Source: Salinirubellus salinus (lineage in GTDB: Archaea > Halobacteriota > Halobacteria > Halobacteriales > Haloarculaceae). Taken from it: a DNA stretch of 64,000 bases. Under the pieces are notes generated by a model. The model did not search any database and was not told the origin of the DNA. It saw only the letters and a list, made by a program, of their open reading frames with translations. Location: contig NZ_CP104003.1 of assembly GCF_025231485.1 (NCBI RefSeq), forward strand, positions 2,232,001-2,296,000. The letters are read 5' to 3'. Made by a program: the position numbers and the translations under genes. Below, piece after piece: positions 4,533 to 54,921 of the stretch; within the stretch, counting starts at the first letter, position 1, and each line of letters starts with the position of its first letter.

Positions 4533-5447
4533 ATGTCGGTCCTCGAGTACGTCGCGAACGGGCTGGTGTTCAGCAGCATCATCGTCCTCGCGAGTATCGG
4601 CCTGTCGCTGGTCTACAGCATCGCCGACTTCGCGAACTTCGCCCACGGCGATACGATGACGGTCGGCGCGTACGGCACGCTGGTCACCTTCGGGTTCGTC
4701 GGTGGACTCGGGGGCACCGTCTTGGGACTGCCGTACGGCTTCTTCGTAGCACTCGTCGCCGGCATCGTCGTCGCCGCCGTCGTCGCCGTCGTCACGCAAC
4801 GACTCGTCTACGAGCCGCTCGACATCGGGTCCATCGGCCTGCTCATCACCTCGATCGGGGTGGCGTTCGTCTACCGAGCGCTCGTCCGACTGGGGTTCGG
4901 TGCGGACCCACGTGAGTACGCGGTCGAGCTGCAGCGGCCCATCGAGGCGCTGTTGCCCTACGGCATCCGGATGACGGTCCACGACGTGGCCATCGTCGGC
5001 TCGGCGGCCCTGCTCGTGACGGGCCTGCACCTCCTGTTGCAGTACACGGACCTCGGTCGGAAGATGCGTGCGATGGCCGACAATCCGGACCTCGCCCGCG
5101 TGAGCGGCATCCGGACCGGCCGCATCCGCATCTGGACGTGGCTCATCGGCGCGGGGCTGGCGGGGGCCGGCGGCGGCTTCCTCGGCCTCTACAACAACGT
5201 CGGCCCCCGCATGGGGTTCGACATCCTGCTCGTCGTGTTCGCCGCCGTCATCCTCGGCGGCATCGGCTCCGTCTACGGGGCGATGCTCGGCGGGTTGCTC
5301 ATCGGGATGATCGACCAGATGACGCCGATACTCGGTGACGTGGGGATCCCCATCGGCACCGAGTACTCCTACGCCATCGCGTTCGTCATCATGGTCGCGG
5401 TACTGCTCGTCCGGCCGAACGGTATCGCCGGGGAGGCAGGCTCGTGA
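4533..5447 (+). CDS. livH: Branched-chain amino acid ABC transporter permease, LivH type
   Basis: A 304-residue polytopic permease. The N-terminus MSVLEYVANGLVFSSIIVLASIGLSL and the motif FANFAHGDTMTVGAY are typical of LivH, and the conserved EAA-like loop and final helices (GGIGSVYGAMLGG) are present. Start ATG 4533, 4 bases after the binding-protein stop; a longer in-frame start inside the upstream gene is unlikely. Its stop overlaps the GTG start of the second permease by 4 bases, indicating translational coupling. Confidence 0.93.
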   Translation: MSVLEYVANGLVFSSIIVLASIGLSLVYSIADFANFAHGDTMTVGAYGTLVTFGFVGGLGGTVLGLPYGFFVALVAGIVVAAVVAVVTQRLVYEPLDIGSIGLLITSIGVAFVYRALVRLGFGADPREYAVELQRPIEALLPYGIRMTVHDVAIVGSAALLVTGLHLLLQYTDLGRKMRAMADNPDLARVSGIRTGRIRIWTWLIGAGLAGAGGGFLGLYNNVGPRMGFDILLVVFAAVILGGIGSVYGAMLGGLLIGMIDQMTPILGDVGIPIGTEYSYAIAFVIMVAVLLVRPNGIAGEAGS

Positions 5448-6763
5448 GCGTCGGCGACCGACTCCCGCAGCTGGGACTGCTCGACGGCTACACGCGGGCC
5501 GAGCGTGGCGTCGTCGGGTTCGTCGTCCTGCTCATGCTGCTGTTGACCTACGGCCTCGTCACCGGCGGCCTCGGGCCGACGTACTTCCTCTACCTCATCG
5601 GTCTGGTCGGGATGTACGTCCTGCTCTCGTTCGGACTGAACGCCCAGTGGGGCTACACGGGGCTCATCAACTTCTCCGTCGCGGCATTCTTCGGTATCGG
5701 CGCGTACGGTACCGCCCTGTTGAGCGCGGACAGTTCGCCCATCGCGGGCGACATGCTCCCCGTCGTGGGACTGTTCGTCGGCCTCCTCGTCGCCGCCATC
5801 GTCGCCGTCGTCATCGGCATCCCGACGCTGCGACTGCGGACCGACTACCTCGCCATCGCCTCGCTGGGGCTAGCCGAGGTCATCCGCATCCTCGTCCAGA
5901 ACCAGCGCGACTACACGAACGGGAGCGCCGGCCTGCGTGGCATCCCCGGCTTCTTCGAGGGGTGGCCGGTGCTGGAGACGTTCCCGCAGGCGATGCCCAC
6001 GCTGATCGTCGAGCGGCTGGTCGTCACCATCCCGTTCGTCGCGGAGTTCGGCCTGTTCGGGTTCCGCCTCGGCCCCGGCTTCTGGCAGGGCCTGCTGAAC
6101 GTCTCGCTCGTGCTCGTCTTCGTCGGTGTGACCTACGCCATGCTGCGCCGGGTCCACCGCTCGCCGTGGGGGCGCGTGCTCCGGACCATCCGGGCCGACG
6201 AGGACCTCGCCGAGGCGCTCGGGAAGAACACCTACGCGTTCAAGATGCAGTCGTTCGTCCTCGGCAGCGTCATCATGGCGCTTGCGGGGGTGTTCTACGC
6301 GCACCTGAACCTCTACGTCTCGCCCGGCGACTTCGAGCCCATCAACACGTTCTACGTCTGGATCGCCGTCATCCTCGGCGGGAGCGGCTCGAACCGGGGG
6401 GCGATGTTCGGCGGGTTCGTCGTCATCGCCATCCGCGAGGGGACCCGGTTCCTCGGGGACCTGCTGCCGGCGGCGTTCCCGACGCTCGGTGTCCCGTTCA
6501 CCGACCTCGTGGTCTCGTTCCCGGCGCTCGTCGAGAACACGTACGCCACCGTGGTGAGCAACTTCGCGTCGACCCGCCTGCTGGCGGTCGGCCTGATCAT
6601 CATCCTCGTGATGCGGTTCCGGCCCGAGGGCGTGCTGCCACCGCAGCGCGAACTCATCTGGCCGGCGGCGACCGAGGGGAGCGACCCCGGCTCGGAGCCG
6701 GGGGCACGGGCCGTGAGTACAGACGGCAGTGGAGCGAACCGTGGAGGTGAGACGAATGAGTGA
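5444..6763 (+). CDS. livM: Branched-chain amino acid ABC transporter permease, LivM type
   Basis: A 439-residue permease with about ten hydrophobic segments. LivM hallmarks are LSFGLNAQWGYTGLINFSVAAFFGIGAY, the loop TDYLAIASLGLAEVIRI, and RSPWGRVLRTIRADEDLAEALGKNTYAFKMQSF. GTG start 5444 overlaps livH by 4 bases; the C-terminal ~40 residues are a polar tail. Its end overlaps the ATPase start at 6756 by 8 bases. Confidence 0.93.
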   Translation: MSVGDRLPQLGLLDGYTRAERGVVGFVVLLMLLLTYGLVTGGLGPTYFLYLIGLVGMYVLLSFGLNAQWGYTGLINFSVAAFFGIGAYGTALLSADSSPIAGDMLPVVGLFVGLLVAAIVAVVIGIPTLRLRTDYLAIASLGLAEVIRILVQNQRDYTNGSAGLRGIPGFFEGWPVLETFPQAMPTLIVERLVVTIPFVAEFGLFGFRLGPGFWQGLLNVSLVLVFVGVTYAMLRRVHRSPWGRVLRTIRADEDLAEALGKNTYAFKMQSFVLGSVIMALAGVFYAHLNLYVSPGDFEPINTFYVWIAVILGGSGSNRGAMFGGFVVIAIREGTRFLGDLLPAAFPTLGVPFTDLVVSFPALVENTYATVVSNFASTRLLAVGLIIILVMRFRPEGVLPPQRELIWPAATEGSDPGSEPGARAVSTDGSGANRGGETNE

Positions 6764-7658
6764 GACCACCCAGGCGGAGACCGAGACGGAGAGCGAGGCC
6801 TCGACCGCGGCCCAGCAGGCCGCCGAGGAGGACCCGGACGGCGGGTTCCAGTTCGGCGGCCCCGACATGCACGACGGCGCGAACCTCGGCAAGGAGGACG
6901 TCGTCCTGAGCGTCGAGGGGCTGCGAAAGACGTTCGGCGGCCTCGTCGCCACCGACGACGCCACCTTCGAGGTCGAACGCGGGACGATCACGGGCATGAT
7001 CGGGCCGAACGGTGCCGGCAAGTCCACGCTGTTCAACCTCGTCAGCGGGTTCTACGACCCCGAGGCGGGGAGCGTGACCGTCAACGGCGTCGACGTGACC
7101 GGCGCCGAACCGCACGAGGTGGCCGAGAAGGGCCTCGTCCGGACGTTCCAGACCCCCCGGAAACTGGAGGGGATGACGGTCCGCGAGGCGATGCTCGTCG
7201 GCCCGCGCTCGCAGGTCGGCGAGTCGTTCGTCTCGCTGTTCACCCGCGGTGACGAGGTGACCACGCAGGAACGCAAGAACCTGGAGGACGCCCACCGCAT
7301 CCTGGAGGAGTTCGAGATCGGTGACCTCGCCCACCAGGCCGCGACCGACCTCTCGGGCGGGCAGATGAAGCTCGTGGAGCTGGCCCGCGCGATGCTGGCC
7401 GAACCAGAGATACTGCTGCTCGACGAGCCCGTCGCCGGCGTCAACCCGACGCTGGCGAACAAGCTCTCCGACCAGATAGAGCGACTGAACGAGCAGGGGA
7501 CCACGTTCCTCGTCATCGAACACGACATGGAGTTCATCATGAACCTCGCGGACCCCATCGTGGTGCTCGACCGCGGACACGTCCTCACGGAGGGGACGCC
7601 CGACGAGGTGCGCTCCGACGACCGTGTCATCGACGCGTACCTCGGAGGTGGCGCCTGA
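6756..7658 (+). CDS. livG: Branched-chain amino acid ABC transporter ATP-binding protein, LivG type
   Basis: A 300-residue ABC ATPase with Walker A GPNGAGKST, Q-loop region, signature LSGGQMK, Walker B ILLLDEPVAG and the switch His in EHDMEFIM. An acidic, probably disordered extension of about 45 residues rich in Glu and Thr precedes the ABC domain and is unusual for LivG. ATG 6756 is preferred because the upstream GTG only lengthens this tail. It ends 1 base into the next ATPase gene. Confidence 0.92.
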   Translation: MSETTQAETETESEASTAAQQAAEEDPDGGFQFGGPDMHDGANLGKEDVVLSVEGLRKTFGGLVATDDATFEVERGTITGMIGPNGAGKSTLFNLVSGFYDPEAGSVTVNGVDVTGAEPHEVAEKGLVRTFQTPRKLEGMTVREAMLVGPRSQVGESFVSLFTRGDEVTTQERKNLEDAHRILEEFEIGDLAHQAATDLSGGQMKLVELARAMLAEPEILLLDEPVAGVNPTLANKLSDQIERLNEQGTTFLVIEHDMEFIMNLADPIVVLDRGHVLTEGTPDEVRSDDRVIDAYLGGGA

Positions 7659-8407
7659 TGGCGAGTTCGGAGACCAGCGCGAGCGACGGCGACGGCCGCG
7701 GCGAGCGCGTCCTGACCGTCGAGCACGTCGACAGCGGCTACGGCGAGGTGCAGGTGCTCGACGACCTGACGCTCGACCTCGCCGAGGGCGAGGTGGCCTG
7801 TCTCATCGGGCCGAACGGCGCCGGCAAGTCGACCGTCCTCAAGACGGTGTTCGGGATGCTGACGCCGTGGACCGGCCACGTCCGGTTCCACGGGCAGGAC
7901 ATCGGCGGGATGGCCCCCGAGGACATCGTCCGCGAGGGCATCGGCTACGTCCCGCAGACCGAGAACGTGTTCGGGTCGCTCACCATCGAGGAGAACCTCC
8001 GGATGGGCGGGGTCGCCCGGAAGGACGACCTCGGACCCGTCCTCGACCAGCTCTACGACCGGTTCCCCCTGCTCACGGAGAAGCGGAACGCGAAGGCGAG
8101 CACCCTCTCGGGCGGTCAGCGGCAGGTACTCGCGTTCGCCCGGGCGCTGGTGATGGAACCCGAGATCCTGCTCATCGACGAGCCGTCGGCCGGGCTCGCA
8201 CCGAACACCGCGGACGAGGTGTTCGAGGACGTCCTCGAGGTCAACGACCTCGGGACGGCCATCCTGATGGTCGAGCAGAACGCGAAGAAGGGGCTGTCCA
8301 TCTCGGACCGCGGCTACGTCCTCGACCAGGGGACGGTCCGGTTCGAGGACGACGCCGACGCGTTGCTCGACAACCCCGAGGTGTCGCGGCTCTACCTCGG
8401 CGGCTGA
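7658..8407 (+). CDS. livF: Branched-chain amino acid ABC transporter ATP-binding protein, LivF type
   Basis: A 249-residue ABC ATPase with Walker A GPNGAGKST, signature LSGGQRQ and Walker B ILLIDEPSAG. YVPQTENVFGSLTIEENLRMGG is the LivF-type Q-loop segment. ATG 7658 overlaps the livG stop by one base (TGATG). It is the last gene of the operon and pairs with LivG as the ATPase heterodimer. Confidence 0.92.
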   Translation: MASSETSASDGDGRGERVLTVEHVDSGYGEVQVLDDLTLDLAEGEVACLIGPNGAGKSTVLKTVFGMLTPWTGHVRFHGQDIGGMAPEDIVREGIGYVPQTENVFGSLTIEENLRMGGVARKDDLGPVLDQLYDRFPLLTEKRNAKASTLSGGQRQVLAFARALVMEPEILLIDEPSAGLAPNTADEVFEDVLEVNDLGTAILMVEQNAKKGLSISDRGYVLDQGTVRFEDDADALLDNPEVSRLYLGG

Positions 8408-8603
8408 CACGACGGCGGCGGCCCGACCCACACCGACGCGTGGAGTGGCGCGCGTGAGCGCGTCCCACGAACGGCTCCCCCTCGCACACGAGGGAGGTTT
8501 AAGTAGCCGCGAGGAACCGGGGCGCCCGCCACCTCCGGGGGCGCCTCGGACGTATAAATCGACGGCCGGCGATGGGGGGGCCGCTCTTCACCCGACCCAT
8601 GAG

Positions 8604-8610
8604 TTAAGTA
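8604..8610 (+). promoter_or_regulatory. TATA-like box of the alcohol dehydrogenase gene
   Basis: TTAAGTA lies 26-32 bases before ATG 8636. The 228-base intergenic stretch also has another TTTAAGTA at 8498-8505 and TATAAAT near 8553, which could be alternative upstream promoters. Confidence 0.5.
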
Positions 8611-8635
8611 GACCCATCGCCACCGGAAGCCCAGC

Positions 8636-9703
8636 ATGCGCGCAGTTGTGTTCAAGGGAGCGAAGGAACCGATGCAGGTGGAGGAGGTCGACCGGCCCGA
8701 CTGCCCCGCCGACGGAGTCGTGGTGGAGACGGAGGCCTGCGGGGTCTGCCGGTCGGACTGGCACGCCTGGATGGGCGACTGGGACTGGTTCGGCGTCCCG
8801 GCGACCGAGGGGCGTATCTTCGGGCACGAACCCGTCGGCACCGTCGTCGAGGTGGGCGAGAAGGTGCAGAACTTCAGCGAGGGCGACCGCGTCACCAACC
8901 CGTTCACGCTGGCCGACGGCACCTGCCGGCAGTGCCAGAGCGGCCACCACAACCGCTGTGAGCGCAAGATGCCGATGGGCTTCCTCGACTTCTCGCCCGG
9001 CGCGTACGCCGAGGAGTACCCGGTCCGTGCCGCCGACACGAACGTCATCAAGCTCCCCGACCACATCGACCCGGTGGAGGTGGCCGGGCTGGGCTGTCGG
9101 TTCGCCACCGCGTTCCACGGCATCTCCCAGCGCGTCGACGTCGGCCCCGGCGACTGGGTCGCCGTCCACGGCTGTGGGGGGGTCGGCCTCTCAGCCATCC
9201 ACACCGCCGACGCCCTCGGCGCGAACGTCATCGCCGTCGATCTGAAACAGGAGGCGCTGGACAAGGCGCTCGAACTCGGCGCCGACGAGACGGTCAAGGT
9301 CGACGAGGTGCAGGACGTCCCGCAGACGGTCAAGGGGTTCACCCCGCGCTCGTCCGGCGCGGACGTCTCGGTGGACGCGCTGGGCATCGCCGCCACGCTC
9401 CAGAACTCCATCAACTCGCTGGGACCGGGCGGTCAGCACCTCCAGATCGGCCTCACCACCAGCGAGGAGCAGGGCGAGGTCGCCATCCCCGTCGACACGA
9501 TGGTCTACGACGAGCGGGAGTTCGTCGGCTCCTACGGGATGCCGCCCCACGAGTACGACGCCATCTTCCGGATGATGGAGACGGGCAAGATCGACCCCGG
9601 GAAGATCGTCAGCGAGACCATCACGCTGGAGCAGGTGCCGGACACCATCGCGTCGATGGGCGACTACGACACCGTCGGTATCCCGGTCTGCAACGAGTTC
9701 TAG
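8636..9703 (+). CDS. Zinc-dependent alcohol dehydrogenase (MDR family)
   Basis: A 355-residue NAD(P)-dependent medium-chain dehydrogenase. Catalytic zinc ligands are Cys38 (GVCRSDWH), His64 and Glu65 (GHEPVG). The structural-zinc lobe shows Cys97, Cys100 and Cys108, while the usual first Cys of that cluster appears to be Asp. The nucleotide-binding motif is GCGGVGLSAIH. Monocistronic, with its own promoter. Length and motifs are normal for the family; the alcohol or aldehyde substrate cannot be told from sequence. Confidence 0.9.
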   Translation: MRAVVFKGAKEPMQVEEVDRPDCPADGVVVETEACGVCRSDWHAWMGDWDWFGVPATEGRIFGHEPVGTVVEVGEKVQNFSEGDRVTNPFTLADGTCRQCQSGHHNRCERKMPMGFLDFSPGAYAEEYPVRAADTNVIKLPDHIDPVEVAGLGCRFATAFHGISQRVDVGPGDWVAVHGCGGVGLSAIHTADALGANVIAVDLKQEALDKALELGADETVKVDEVQDVPQTVKGFTPRSSGADVSVDALGIAATLQNSINSLGPGGQHLQIGLTTSEEQGEVAIPVDTMVYDEREFVGSYGMPPHEYDAIFRMMETGKIDPGKIVSETITLEQVPDTIASMGDYDTVGIPVCNEF

Positions 9704-9846
9704 ACGGGTCCCGGTCTCTCCGGCTGCGTTCGTCGGCCTCGGTGGGTCGTGGTCGATACCGGCGAGCGGCGGGCAGGCGAATACAGGCCCGACACCACGG
9801 TACGCAGTTCCACACCACTTATGGCCGGAGCGGCGAACGCGGACCT

Positions 9847-10050
9847 ATGGACCTCGAAGAGACGAAGGAGATGCTCGGACAGCGCGGTCAGCTGGGTGCG
9901 GCCCTGCTGGTACTCGGTCTGTTCGTCATCGGCAAGCACGACAGGAAGGCCGCCGTCGGGACGACGCTCGTCGTCGTCGGGATGGGGCTGGTCGCGGGGG
10001 GTATCGTCGACAGCGCGCTCGAGAAGATGGGGATGAAGGGCGCCTTCTGA
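9847..10050 (+). CDS. Small two-helix membrane protein, uncharacterised
   Basis: A 67-residue protein, MDLEETKEMLGQRGQLG then two hydrophobic segments (about residues 18-31 and 38-53) joined by the charged loop GKHDRKA. ATG 9847 fits a leaderless start, with an ACTTATGG box about 27 bases upstream. No family is recognised with confidence. It is convergent with the DUF460 gene. Confidence 0.7.
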   Translation: MDLEETKEMLGQRGQLGAALLVLGLFVIGKHDRKAAVGTTLVVVGMGLVAGGIVDSALEKMGMKGAF

Positions 10051-10072
10051 GTCGGGAGCGGCGGCGGCCGGC

Positions 10073-12064
10073 TCAGTCGCCCTCGCCGCGTTCGGTACGC
10101 TTCGTCTCGGCCCGGTGTTCGCTGATGAGCCGGTCCACCATCTCGTCGGTCTGGTCCTTGCGCCGGTCCTCGGCCCGGTCCGCCCAGTCCTCGACGACAG
10201 CCTCCACCTCCGACTCGTGGGCGACGGCCAGTTCGTCGACCTCCTGTATCGTCACGTCGTCGGCCGGGCCGACCGGGATCTCGTGGTCGAACAGCACGTC
10301 GTCGGCCTGCTCCGAGAGGTTGCCCGCTCGCAACACCACCTTCGGCTCCACCGCGGCGAGCATCTCGGCCGTCTCGCGGCCGGCACCGCTGGCGTCCCGG
10401 AGGTAGACCACGTCGTCGCGCGCGAGACCGAAGCGCTCCTGTGCGTCCTCGATGGCCGCCTTGGTGAACTGTTCGAGCGGCTTGACGGGGACGAGACCGG
10501 CCTTCTGCTCGGCCACGTCGGCGAAGTTCGAGTGGTCGAGCCGCCAGAGCGACTTCAGCCGCTCCAGTTTCCCCTCGAGCTCCTCGTTGCGCTCGCGTTG
10601 TTCGTCCAGTTTCCGCTCCAGTTGGTCGTTCTTGCGCTCGAGGCGGGTGACCTCGCGGCGCTCTCTGGCCTCGCGACGCTCCTCGCGGCGGGCCTCGCTC
10701 AACTCCGACTGGAGCTCCGAGACGCGCTCTTCCTTCGTGGCGATGGTGTCACGCAGGTCCTCGACGTGGTCCTCCAGCCGGCCGATGCGTGATCTGAGCC
10801 GCTTGATCTCGCGTTCCTCGGCCGTCGGCTCGCGCGGGTCGTGTTCGTGCTCGTCCTGCTCCGGCTGTTCGTCCTCGGTCAGGTCGCGGAGGACGGCCTC
10901 GACGCTCTCCTCGCCGGAGACGACCCGGCCGATGACCTCGCCGCGTTCGAGGTCCGGGGGCACCTTCCGCGAGATGCGAGCGAACTGGTCCTCGTGGTCG
11001 TCGAACGCGTAGAGCGCCGCGGCCATCGCGTCCCGCTCGTGGTCGTTGTCGTACCCGACCTCGCGGGTGCGGTGCTGTTTCCCGTCGACCGGGAGGTCCG
11101 TCGTCGGGGTCCAGCCGGCGGCGTCGAACGAGCGGCGGAACTTCTCCACCGTCTCGGGCATCGGAGTGACGTCCGCGGCGACGAGGATGGGCCGGCCGCG
11201 CTCGATGATCCACTCGATGACGGCGGCGGTGTCGGCGGTCCGGGTCGAGAGCACGTCGAGGACGTTGCCGTCGAGGTCCAGCACGGCCACGGCCGTCGTG
11301 GTGCCCGGGTCGATGCCGACGATGACGTGGTCGCGGCGCTTGGCGAGCGGCTCGAACTCGATGCCGTCGCGGCGCTCGCGCTCGATCTCGACACGCACGT
11401 CGCCACTCCGGTTCGCCGAGACCGGGATGTCCGCCGGCGTCCCCTCGACGTGGAACAGCGCGCGGGCGTAGCCGCCGTACTTCTCGGTCACCTCCTGCTC
11501 GTACTCGAGGCCGGCGTCGTCAAGTTCGGACTCGATCTCGCGGGCGCGCCTGCGGACGTTGCCGTGGATGCGCCGCGTGTAGCGGTCCTCGGACCACCCG
11601 CCCTTGCCCGTGGAGCGGCCGCGCGAGACCTTCACCGTCGTCGTGTTCGTGAACGCCGAGACCTCGTAGCCGACGTTCATCGCCGCGAGGCGGGCGGCGG
11701 CCTCGGCCTCCTTCATCGGCTTCTTGCCGTACGGGACGCCGTGGCGCGAGGCCACTCGGGAGAGTGGTTCCGGGCGTTCGGCGCCGGTCACCTGCACCAG
11801 TCTCGTCTCGCTCGGCAGGTGGCGCAGGAAGTGCACGAGCGCGTCCTTGTCGGCCGCCAGTTCGTACATGTTGTCCGTGGCGAGGATGGCGGGCTCCTCG
11901 CGGTCGACCAGCCGCTTCAGTTTGCGGAGGGAGACGACGTCCCGGTCGACGTGCTCGCCGTCGAAGGCGACGAGGGCGTAGGAGGGCGAATCACCCCGGA
12001 CGTCACCGCTCTGGACGTCGACGCCGAAGACGACGGCGTCGAGCGCACTCGTGCGGGTGCTCAC
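10073..12064 (-). CDS. DUF460 / COG2433 RuvC-like RNase H-fold protein with coiled coil
   Basis: A 663-residue archaeal-specific protein. The RuvC/YqgF-like core is marked by VIVGIDPGTTTAVAVLD, VAADVTPMP and DNDHERDAMAAALYAF, which supply the acidic residues of an RNase H fold. About residues 415-515 form a long charged coiled coil (repeated Arg/Glu, as in RREERREARERREVTRLERK). A C-terminal domain with DDVVYLRDASGAGRETAEML follows. A nuclease role is predicted for the family; I know of no demonstrated activity. The protein starts at the ATG complement of 12062-12064. Confidence 0.88.
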   Translation of the reverse strand: MSTRTSALDAVVFGVDVQSGDVRGDSPSYALVAFDGEHVDRDVVSLRKLKRLVDREEPAILATDNMYELAADKDALVHFLRHLPSETRLVQVTGAERPEPLSRVASRHGVPYGKKPMKEAEAAARLAAMNVGYEVSAFTNTTTVKVSRGRSTGKGGWSEDRYTRRIHGNVRRRAREIESELDDAGLEYEQEVTEKYGGYARALFHVEGTPADIPVSANRSGDVRVEIERERRDGIEFEPLAKRRDHVIVGIDPGTTTAVAVLDLDGNVLDVLSTRTADTAAVIEWIIERGRPILVAADVTPMPETVEKFRRSFDAAGWTPTTDLPVDGKQHRTREVGYDNDHERDAMAAALYAFDDHEDQFARISRKVPPDLERGEVIGRVVSGEESVEAVLRDLTEDEQPEQDEHEHDPREPTAEEREIKRLRSRIGRLEDHVEDLRDTIATKEERVSELQSELSEARREERREARERREVTRLERKNDQLERKLDEQRERNEELEGKLERLKSLWRLDHSNFADVAEQKAGLVPVKPLEQFTKAAIEDAQERFGLARDDVVYLRDASGAGRETAEMLAAVEPKVVLRAGNLSEQADDVLFDHEIPVGPADDVTIQEVDELAVAHESEVEAVVEDWADRAEDRRKDQTDEMVDRLISEHRAETKRTERGEGD

Positions 12065-49224: not shown

Positions 49225-49387
49225 GTCCGCTCGGTGGGAGACGCCAGCACAAAAATCCACTCGTCCGGGGGGCGGCGCGAGCCGCACGAGAGAAGCCACG
49301 AGCGACGCTTAGACGTTTCACAGAGGTCTGAGACGTTTCACCGGGTCATGGAAAGCGTTTTGCCGCGAGGGCGTGGACCTCCGGGGT

Positions 49388-50596
49388 ATGCGGCCGGGGC
49401 TGCCCTCCACGCTGACGCTGGTCCTCGTGCTCGTCCTCGCCGGTGTGGCCGGCGGCGTCGGGACTGCAGCGACCGCCCCGGTGACCGACACGCGGGCGGA
49501 CGTCGTGCAGGTCGACCCGCCGAGGAACGGGACGCTCGTCGAACTCCAGTTGACGCCCGACGGCACCGCGCGCTGGACCGTCGAGCAGCGCTTCGCGCTC
49601 GACGACGAGAACGACACGCGCGCCTTCGAGCGCCTCGCCAACGAGTTCGAGGCCGGCGACGCCGGGACGGGCTACCTGGAGGCGTTCGCCCGGGGGCGGG
49701 TGGCCGCGAGCAACGCCACGGGTCGCGAGATGCGCCTCGTGAACATCAGCCGTGACAGCCGGGTCGAGGCGGCGAGGAACGTCAGCGTCGGCGTCCTCGA
49801 GCTCTCGTTCGAGTGGACGAACTTCGCGCGGGTCGGGGGCGGCAGGCTCCGCGTCGACGACGCGTTCCGCACGCCGGACAACGGGACGTGGTTCCCCGGC
49901 ATCACCGAGAGCGAGACGTTCGTCGTCCGCCCGCCGGCGGGCTACGGCGTCTCCTCGGCACCGGCGGCTCCCACGCGCGGGGTCATCCGTCTCTTCGGCC
50001 CACGCGAGTTCGAACCGGGCTACCTCGACATCACGTACGAGCGACTGGCGACCCCCACCGAGACGCCGACGGTCACGGCGCCTGGGGGCACGCTCACCGG
50101 GTCGGGGACCCCGAGCGACACGCCGACCGTGCCGCCGACGGTCGACCGGGAGACGCTGTTCCTCCTCGTCGGCCTGGTGGGGCTCGGTCTGCTGGCCGTG
50201 CTGGTCTACCTGCTCGCGCGACGCGGGACGGGCGACGACGGGGGCGCCCCGGCGGCCGCGAACGGGGGCGTAGACGACGGTGGGGCGATCGCCGCCGGTG
50301 TCGCTGGTGGCGAGAGCGGTGACGGCGAACCGGAGCCGGAGCCAGCGCCGGAGCCCGAGCCGGAACCCGTGGACACGGAGCTGTTGAGCGACGAGGAGCG
50401 GGTGGAACACCTGCTGGAGTGGAACGGGGGGCGGATGAAGCAGGCGAACATCGTAGACGAGACCGGGTGGTCGAACGCGAAGGTCTCACAGCTGCTGTCG
50501 GCGATGGACGAGGCCGGCCGCATCGACAAGCTCCGCATCGGTCGGGAGAACCTCATCTCGCTGCCGGACGAGGACGTGACAGAGTTCGAGGAGTGA
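49388..50596 (+). CDS. Membrane-anchored HTH regulator with extracytoplasmic domain (DUF7345/DUF7343-like)
   Basis: A 402-residue one-component sensor. It has a signal peptide (LTLVLVLVLAGVAGGVGTA), an outside beta-rich domain to about residue 230 with several sequons, a Thr/Pro stalk and a single helix LFLLVGLVGLGLLAVLVYLLA. A Glu/Pro linker then leads to a cytoplasmic winged helix (DEERVEHLLEWNGGRMKQANIVDETGWSNAKVSQLLSAMDEAG). The topology implies a signal outside changing transcription directly. It is divergent from the secreted protein at 47854-49224, a likely target or partner. Confidence 0.85.
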   Translation: MRPGLPSTLTLVLVLVLAGVAGGVGTAATAPVTDTRADVVQVDPPRNGTLVELQLTPDGTARWTVEQRFALDDENDTRAFERLANEFEAGDAGTGYLEAFARGRVAASNATGREMRLVNISRDSRVEAARNVSVGVLELSFEWTNFARVGGGRLRVDDAFRTPDNGTWFPGITESETFVVRPPAGYGVSSAPAAPTRGVIRLFGPREFEPGYLDITYERLATPTETPTVTAPGGTLTGSGTPSDTPTVPPTVDRETLFLLVGLVGLGLLAVLVYLLARRGTGDDGGAPAAANGGVDDGGAIAAGVAGGESGDGEPEPEPAPEPEPEPVDTELLSDEERVEHLLEWNGGRMKQANIVDETGWSNAKVSQLLSAMDEAGRIDKLRIGRENLISLPDEDVTEFEE

Positions 50597-52717: not shown

Positions 52718-53575
52718 ATGGAGACGCGACCCGTCGAGGTGGTCCCACTCGGCGACGTGGACGAGCGACACGCCGAGACAGCGATGCGCGCGCTCGCCGA
52801 CGTCTACGGGTGTGACGCGCGGGTGGCACGGCGGGAGCCGCTGCCCGCCGGCGCACGCGACGAGGAGACCGGACAGTACCGCGCGGACGAACTGCTGGAG
52901 GCGCTCCCGGTGGGTGGGTTGCTCCGCCTCGGCGTCACGGACGTGGACCTCACCTATCGGCGGCGCAACTACGTGTTCGGCGTCGGCTACCTCGGCGAGT
53001 CCCGGGCAGTCTGTTCGACCTACCGGCTGGACACCCCGGACACCGAGGCCACAGCGGAGCGACTCCGCAAGCAGGCGGTCAAGCAGGTGGGCCACCTGCT
53101 GGGACTGGAGAACTGCGACAACCGTTGCGCGATGCAGTTCGCACCGACCGTCGACGAGGTGGACGTCCGGCCGGAGACGCTGTGCCGGGAGTGCCGTTCG
53201 ACGCTGGCGTCGGCGGAGCGGGAGCCGACGGCCGGGACGGCGGGGAGTTCCGGGAGCGCCGTCGCGCCCTCGAAGGCCGACATCGAGGCGATCGAGGCGA
53301 GCGGAGACAGTGACGCCGACCGGAAGGGCTGGGGCGAGCAGGTGGTCGACGAGGGGGTGACGACGGTCCGCTTCACCCTCACGCTGGCCGCGTTCGCCCT
53401 CTCGTTCGTCGTGGTCGGAGCGGGAACGTACTGGCTCGTCGAGGACGTGTTCGGCGCGCAACTGGGACAGGTGGCCGGGTACGGCGTGCTCCTGCTCGCG
53501 GTGCTGGGCGGCATCTACCTCACGGTGAAGCTCAGACGCGTGGGGCGGGCCGCGTACGGCCGGGTCCGGGACTAG
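52718..53575 (+). CDS. Archaemetzincin homologue with degenerate active site and C-terminal membrane anchor
   Basis: A 285-residue protein. The N-terminal 165 residues match archaemetzincin (AmzA): RRRNYVFGVGYL, STYRL and the C-terminal CDNRCAMQFAPTVDEVDVRPETLC with Cys133, 137, 156 and 159. The canonical HExxHxxGxxHC reads KQVGHLLGLENC here: Lys122 and Gln123 replace the first His and catalytic Glu, and Asn132 replaces the third His. An inactive peptidase is therefore predicted. A Ser/Ala linker and two helices (residues ~218-275) tether it to the membrane. Convergent with the GIDE gene, 4-base overlap. Confidence 0.82.
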   Translation: METRPVEVVPLGDVDERHAETAMRALADVYGCDARVARREPLPAGARDEETGQYRADELLEALPVGGLLRLGVTDVDLTYRRRNYVFGVGYLGESRAVCSTYRLDTPDTEATAERLRKQAVKQVGHLLGLENCDNRCAMQFAPTVDEVDVRPETLCRECRSTLASAEREPTAGTAGSSGSAVAPSKADIEAIEASGDSDADRKGWGEQVVDEGVTTVRFTLTLAAFALSFVVVGAGTYWLVEDVFGAQLGQVAGYGVLLLAVLGGIYLTVKLRRVGRAAYGRVRD

Positions 53576-54339: not shown

Positions 54340-54921
54340 TCAGCGGGCGAACTGCTCGCGGATATCGACGCGCTCGCGGGCCTCCTCGTCGGCGCTGAAC
54401 GGTTCGCGTGGCTCGTAGTCACGGCGCGAGGCGAACAGCGACTCGGGGAAGCGGTCGAGGCGGGCGTTGTAGCGGGCGACGGCCTCGTTGTAGTACTCCC
54501 GGCGGTCCTCCAGTCGCCGTTCGAGTTCGGTGATGGTCTCCCCGAGTTCCGCGAAGTGCTCGTCCGCGCGGAGTTCGGGGTAGTCGTCCGCGAGGTTGTA
54601 GATCTCGTCGACCGCCCGTTTTACCTCCACCTCGGCCAGCGCTCGCTGGCTCGGCGTGTCGGCCTCGACGAGTCGCTCGCGGGCGACCAGCACCTCCGCG
54701 AGCACCTCCTGTTCGACGTCGACGTGTTCGCGGGCTACCGCCACGAGCGAGGCCACCTCGTCGTGGCGCCGCTGGAGCAGGGTCTCGACGTTGCCCCAGG
54801 TCCGGTCGACGTTCTGCCGGGCCTCGACGAGGTTGTTGTGCGCGGACCCGAGGTAGCGGACGAGACTGTAGACGACCAGCAAGCCGGCGAACCCGGCGAC
54901 GACGCTGGGGAACGAGACCAT
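54340..54921 (-). CDS. lemA: LemA family protein
   Basis: A 193-residue protein with an N-terminal signal-anchor helix (VVAGFAGLLVVYSLVRYL) and then the LemA four-helix bundle: NNLVEARQNVDRTWGNVETLLQRRHDEV, NLADDYPELRADEHFAEL, and EYYNEAVARYNARLDRFPESLFA. Length and motifs are normal. Role unknown in archaea; in bacteria LemA proteins associate with membrane proteases and envelope functions. Likely cotranscribed with the GIDE gene. Confidence 0.92.
   Translation of the reverse strand: MVSFPSVVAGFAGLLVVYSLVRYLGSAHNNLVEARQNVDRTWGNVETLLQRRHDEVASLVAVAREHVDVEQEVLAEVLVARERLVEADTPSQRALAEVEVKRAVDEIYNLADDYPELRADEHFAELGETITELERRLEDRREYYNEAVARYNARLDRFPESLFASRRDYEPREPFSADEEARERVDIREQFAR

Follow-up and report, generated by a model that had tools for sequence, protein, structure and literature searches.

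A predicted pseudo-archaemetzincin with a C-terminal hairpin linked to a LemA–GIDE gene pair in haloarchaea

Archaemetzincins, CarG and the partners of LemA

The closest described relatives of the protein analyzed here are the archaemetzincins of the AmzA type (M54, PF07998), including AfAmzA (3zvs/4axq) and MkAmzA (2x7m), with which it shares the fold, the Cys4 site, the flanking motifs and the Met-turn. In the available text of PMC3427221, the corresponding four Cys residues of AfAmzA form a Cys4 zinc finger beneath the catalytic site. Unlike AmzA, the 285-residue protein of Salinirubellus salinus contains no HExxH motif, has lost two of the three catalytic His residues, has gained a hairpin and is linked to genes for LemA-family and GIDE-like proteins.

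Dead archaemetzincins are already known as a kind through CarG of Myxococcus xanthus. The available passages of PMC8156234 describe CarG as lacking protease activity, forming a tight, obligate complex with CarD and being essential to CarD function; its motif, HQx2Hx2Ex2HC, carries Gln in place of Glu and keeps the His ligands. The Cys residues of CarG are required (PMC3427221, available text), and the protein probably corresponds to the NCBIfam model NF033824 (non-proteolytic archaemetzincin-like protein). As far as these excerpts go, CarG resembles the haloarchaeal protein as a proteolytically dead archaemetzincin-type protein, apparently kept for protein binding, in which Cys residues matter. 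It differs in being soluble, in having CarD as its partner and in keeping the His ligands, of which the 285-residue protein lacks His1 and His3. CarG is therefore a precedent rather than a family-level relative.

Partner genes also adjoin LemA in bacteria. The available passage of PMC8546594 gives pneumococcal lemA and htpX, a protease gene, successive locus tags and comparable fold changes, and the LemA genes of three annotated plasmid loci adjoin genes for TPM or DUF2207 proteins. The haloarchaeal loci resemble these in that a partner gene adjoins LemA, in the HtpX case a zinc protease (M48), but differ in that the partner is a dead metzincin together with a GIDE-like protein. This comparison, which covers part of one paper and three plasmid loci, suggests that LemA may be a module whose partners can be exchanged. 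Searches of open-access papers, read as listed titles and abstract openings, turned up neither a LemA–GIDE–archaemetzincin linkage nor a membrane-tethered archaemetzincin clade.

Residue losses and an added hairpin

The gene lies in a 64,000-nucleotide stretch of the S. salinus genome (contig NZ_CP104003.1, positions 2,232,001 to 2,296,000), referred to below as the window. Its reading frame runs unbroken from ATG to TAG (285 codons plus stop), and its GC content by codon position (0.751/0.495/0.905) resembles that of neighboring genes. The features of the locus are collected in Table 1.

Table 1 Features of the pseudo-archaemetzincin locus, in positions of the window
Feature	Position	Strand	Basis
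Predicted pseudo-archaemetzincin gene, putatively membrane-anchored, 285 aa	52718..53575	+	PF07998 46.9 bits (cut-off 24.4), clade, alignment
Archaemetzincin-like domain, residues 1-165	52718..53212	+	PDB 4axq/3zvs alignment, Foldseek
Predicted dead catalytic motif KQVGHLLGLENC replacing HExxHxxGxxHC, residues 122-133	53081..53116	+	
Putative zinc-finger Cys C133, C137, C156, C159	53114..53194; codon starts 53114, 53126, 53183, 53192	+	
Predicted C-terminal membrane hairpin; helices about 53366-53422 and 53471-53527	53366..53527	+	hydropathy and charge
GIDE-like membrane protein, 254 aa	53572..54336	-	PF12483 26.5 bits, cut-off 23.6
LemA-family protein, 3 nt upstream of the GIDE-like gene	54340..54921	-	PF04011 123 bits, cut-off 26.2

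Among solved structures, AfAmzA (4axq/3zvs) is nearest, with residues 14-162 aligned at E=1.5e-25. The protein falls short of two NCBIfam cut-offs, that of NF033823 (archaemetzincin; 120.8 vs 145 bits) and that of NF033824 (73.2 vs 250 bits). An AmzA of 173 aa with the full motif is encoded elsewhere in the same genome (L001/L041). At residues 122-133, the 285-residue protein reads KQVGHLLGLENC where this AmzA reads HEIGHTLGLEHC, the changes being His1 to Lys, Glu to Gln and His3 to Asn, with His2 (residue 126) and the Gly retained. The protein has thus lost its general-base Glu along with two of three zinc-ligand His residues, while C133, C137, C156 and C159, the Met-turn residue Met139 and the flanking motifs RRRNYVFG and STYRL are all present. 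The initial annotation had described exactly this degeneration of the metzincin signature alongside intact cysteines and flanking motifs, and comparison with the genome's own AmzA bears it out. Judged by these residues, the protein is predicted to be a catalytically dead archaemetzincin (M54) paralogue.

Comparison was extended to 26 dead domains, two of which come from one Halosimplex protein. HExxH occurs in none of them, and His2 is lost from 23, whereas the second to fourth zinc-ligand positions (C2, C3 and C4) are Cys in all 26; the cysteines, on which the initial annotation had proposed to look at selection, are thus conserved. In an alignment read by eye, the remaining position (C1) is Cys in 11 domains and His in 15, the substitute His standing a few to about 20 residues N-terminal of C2. 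The zinc-finger site of these proteins therefore seems, from their sequences, to be kept as CCCC or HCCC, with the catalytic site free to vary. The initial annotation had raised the prospect of a conserved clade of the form KQ-GH..N; loss of HExxH, the zinc-finger cysteines and the hairpin are indeed conserved, but the exact letters are not. KQxGH recurs in two relatives (G293 and G224) and KQxGR in two more (G368 and G332), so that four carry KQxG(H/R), and Asn stands at His3 in a single relative.

Two C-terminal helices had likewise been proposed, and a linker of some 50 residues is indeed followed by two hydrophobic segments (about 217-235 and about 252-270), which lie beyond the 173 aa at which the genome's own AmzA stops. 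The short hairpin loop contains no basic residue and the C-terminal tail contains six; by the positive-inside rule, this places the archaemetzincin domain and the tail on the cytoplasmic side, a topology we infer from the charge pattern. A four-sequence AlphaFold model, weak at a mean pLDDT of 60.6, contains helices at 202-245 and 247-284. Searched with Foldseek, this weak model gave confident PDB matches only to archaemetzincin-type structures, five of them at E<=0.001, with AfAmzA as the best (E=1.4e-9, prob 1.00). In a separate search, the hairpin as the only query gave weak matches (E 1e-5 to 1e-3) that do not lend themselves to interpretation. A Halosimplex pelagicum homologue matches the full length, hairpin included, at about 42% identity, indicating that the architecture did not arise by chance.

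Clade, distribution and linkage to LemA and GIDE-like genes

Searches with tblastn and profiles covered 146 genomes of the host family, 392 of the order (23 searched twice), 125 and 28 of two other families and 246 of the phylum; the haloarchaeal samples overlap and total at least 475 genomes. A dead archaemetzincin domain with a hairpin was found in 22 genomes from four families, namely 8 of 146, 11 of 125 and 2 of 28 in the three families sampled, plus one genome of a fourth (G152). Named carriers include Halosimplex pelagicum R2, Haloarcula sebkhae JCM 19018 and Haloarcula japonica DSM 6131. As the sole query against genome contigs, the 285-residue protein gave no match, and an alignment query recovered the three named loci. 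Three further copies lack the hairpin (in G072, in G169 and as a second copy in G372). This distribution is patchy; some archaemetzincin, nearly always AmzA, occurs in 387 of the 392 order genomes.

In a maximum-likelihood tree (175 columns, WAG+F+G4), 25 dead domains split with support 99/98 from 19 AmzA sequences and one odd copy, the short protein of G372. The resulting clade comprises 22 hairpin-bearing proteins and two hairpin-less copies, and the Salinirubellus protein branches first within it (84/78) on a short branch. The short G372 copy (L088:6123-7214) has kept His1 but lost Glu and falls with the AmzA sequences rather than the dead clade; it may represent an independent active-site loss. 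The Halosimplex pelagicum protein (L033:6101-7948, also L095) carries its two dead domains in tandem ahead of the hairpin. In G458, two AmzA copies with equal scores lie on separate contigs (C1:2969050-2969556 and C8:20052-20558), reflecting either duplication or an assembly artefact.

Linkage to LemA and GIDE-like genes, which was absent from the initial annotation, is the main clue to function. The human mitochondrial ligase MUL1/MAPL belongs to the GIDE family. In S. salinus, the pseudo-archaemetzincin and GIDE-like genes stand tail to tail, their stop codons overlapping by 4 nt in a shared CTAG, and the adjoining LemA gene is the only one found in the genome. When the reading frames of 25 dead-archaemetzincin loci were clustered, the families common to most loci, among the clusters listed, were the dead protease and the LemA–GIDE pair; the remaining families among those clusters, own antisense frames aside, were common to at most 7 loci. 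The pair adjoins 21 of the 22 hairpin-type dead proteases (the exception is G386) and none of the three hairpin-less ones. Dead protease and GIDE genes lie tail to tail in 19 of the 21 adjacent loci, -18 to +70 nt apart; in G293 and G224, all three genes occupy one strand in the order dead protease, LemA, GIDE. The prevailing convergent layout does not form one operon, and linkage may consequently reflect co-transfer instead of joint expression.

Several observations were made around these loci. The hairpin-less genes of G072 (L038) and G169 (L090) lie away from LemA–GIDE in the regions read, and G169 has a distant LemA–GIDE pair elsewhere in its genome. In four genomes of one genus (G324, G326, G411 and G459), AmzA is encoded about 12-23 kb from the cassette of dead protease, LemA and GIDE genes. 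One locus (L131 of G028, 4946-10799) contains a LemA gene amid about five tandem GIDE-like genes and no dead archaemetzincin. In the window itself, a membrane protein with DUF7345 and DUF7343 (49373-50596, +), which looks like a membrane-bound regulator, is encoded directly upstream of etf genes.

At the Pfam level, the GIDE assignment of the neighbor family is weakly supported, with 7 of 13 members matching PF12483 at E<=0.1. The dedicated models for GIDE and LemA derive from cassette loci themselves, 13 of them for GIDE, which is a caveat on the linkage. In the 392-genome order sample, the GIDE model matched 18 genomes at 312-387 bits, the next match scoring 125; six of the 18 lay outside the model seed, although two of these almost match a seed sequence, and they still scored 312-368 bits. 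Both the dead protease and this GIDE type occurred in 18 genomes, the dead protease only in one (G386), the GIDE type only in none and neither in 373 (Fisher p=3.8e-30, uncorrected for kinship among genomes). The LemA model matched 13 of 103 genomes, five above 300 bits, all of them cassette carriers, and eight at 61-165 bits. In five of these eight genomes (G169, G170, G181, G195 and G212), LemA stands beside a weaker GIDE-like match of a more distant lineage. Such low-scoring adjacent genes indicate that LemA–GIDE pairs exist without the dead protease, which marks one lineage. PADLOC defence models returned no family at E<=0.1 for the three cassette proteins and one relative.

Proposed role and competing explanations

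We consider it likely that the protein is a non-catalytic, zinc-stabilized, membrane-held binding or regulatory subunit of a LemA–GIDE complex. The Cys4 zinc-finger site would hold the dead domain in its fold, and the two-helix hairpin would tie it to the membrane with the domain in the cytoplasm. There it may act as the third component of a haloarchaeal LemA–GIDE membrane module, transmitted or lost as a whole, its protease-like cleft or surface binding a peptide or partner protein rather than cutting it. The carrier G386, which lacks the LemA–GIDE pair, counts against assignment as a subunit. The core of the initial annotation, that the fold was retained, catalysis lost and a membrane tether gained, holds, and the binding or regulatory role that it suggested is likewise graded likely.

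A further-reaching version is possible but doubtful. The three proteins may constitute an undescribed haloarchaeal membrane system in which the zinc-stabilized pseudoprotease would be the receptor, on the cytoplasmic side, that senses a peptide or a misfolded protein, LemA and GIDE would relay this signal at the membrane, and the dead metzincin would stand in HtpX's place beside LemA. The notion of a dead metzincin occupying the position of a live protease is speculation by analogy. Contrary to expectation, other haloarchaeal LemA–GIDE loci showed no adjacent live HExxH protease, of the M48 type or otherwise: 12 short, lower-scoring GIDE loci (L118-L129) contained only two HExxH letter matches, apparently out of frame, and six larger regions contained one HExxH protein, non-adjacent. 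The idea of HtpX replacement consequently derives solely from the available pneumococcal passage (PMC8546594).

Set against a LemA–GIDE subunit is the explanation that the three genes travel together on a mobile island for reasons other than a shared function, which we regard as unlikely. Its appeal lies in the patchy occurrence in three families, in the want of any further neighbor family beyond groups of a few loci among the clusters listed, and in protein distances that track AmzA weakly. However, in those clusters the loci have no further gene in common, whether from mobile elements or otherwise, adjacency is kept in G293 and G224 despite their different orientation, plasmids gave no match to the 285-residue protein or its GIDE neighbor, and viral contigs gave none to the GIDE model (A4). 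Protein distances count in favor of the LemA–GIDE subunit. Across 21 genomes, those of the dead protease correlate with those of LemA at rho 0.82 and of GIDE at 0.65, and GIDE with LemA at 0.72 (0.79, 0.63 and 0.71, respectively, with AmzA distance fixed), while each cassette protein correlates with AmzA at 0.21-0.37, the dead protease at 0.37. The three genes seem to descend together, in part uncoupled from AmzA as a vertical marker.

These correlations also bear on the suggestion that the protein is a membrane-bound decoy regulating active AmzA in trans, through substrate competition or mixed complexes, for which we see little chance. An AmzA paralogue with the full motif, the coexistence of which the initial annotation had proposed to check, does occur in all 24 genomes bearing any dead copy, and the dead clade has the same fold as AmzA and is rooted on it in the tree. 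Archaemetzincin is nevertheless near-universal in the sampled haloarchaea with or without a dead copy, so that this coexistence says nothing either way. The dead copy also follows LemA and GIDE much more closely than it follows AmzA, and its gene does not adjoin amzA.

That the gene is a decaying duplicate, kept merely through recent origin in the Salinirubellus genome, is very improbable. In its favor, catalytic residues vary among relatives and, the host genus being represented by one genome, dN/dS covers relatives rather than the Salinirubellus copy. Values for the dead protease are 0.30-0.52 in seven of eight pairs of relatives; the remaining pair, near-identical Haloarcula, gives 1.1, which would speak for decay but stands on a dS of just 0.018. 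The partners give 0.09-0.44 (GIDE) and 0.06-0.23 (LemA), such that the dead protease is constrained in relatives, yet evolving faster than GIDE or LemA in most pairs. Close relatives are under purifying selection. Together with the occurrence in 22 genomes of four families, the intact frame, the neighbor-like codon-position GC, the invariant C2-C4 and the conserved hairpin, this largely refutes decay for the dead clade; the single genome under relaxed selection that the initial annotation named as the mark of a decaying gene is not what was found. Least credible of all is a still-active enzyme with a metal site rearranged from the remaining His and other residues, an idea that could appeal to the retained His2 and Met-turn Met but faces the missing general-base Glu, two missing His ligands and the loss of His2 itself from most dead domains.

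As a subunit of a LemA–GIDE complex, the protein would join CarG as an archaemetzincin retained to bind rather than cut, although its pattern of residue loss differs. Proteins of the LemA and GIDE-domain families occur widely but are little understood, and a tightly linked third component of known fold would provide a handle on the function of the module, in a cassette that is testable in culturable Haloarcula.
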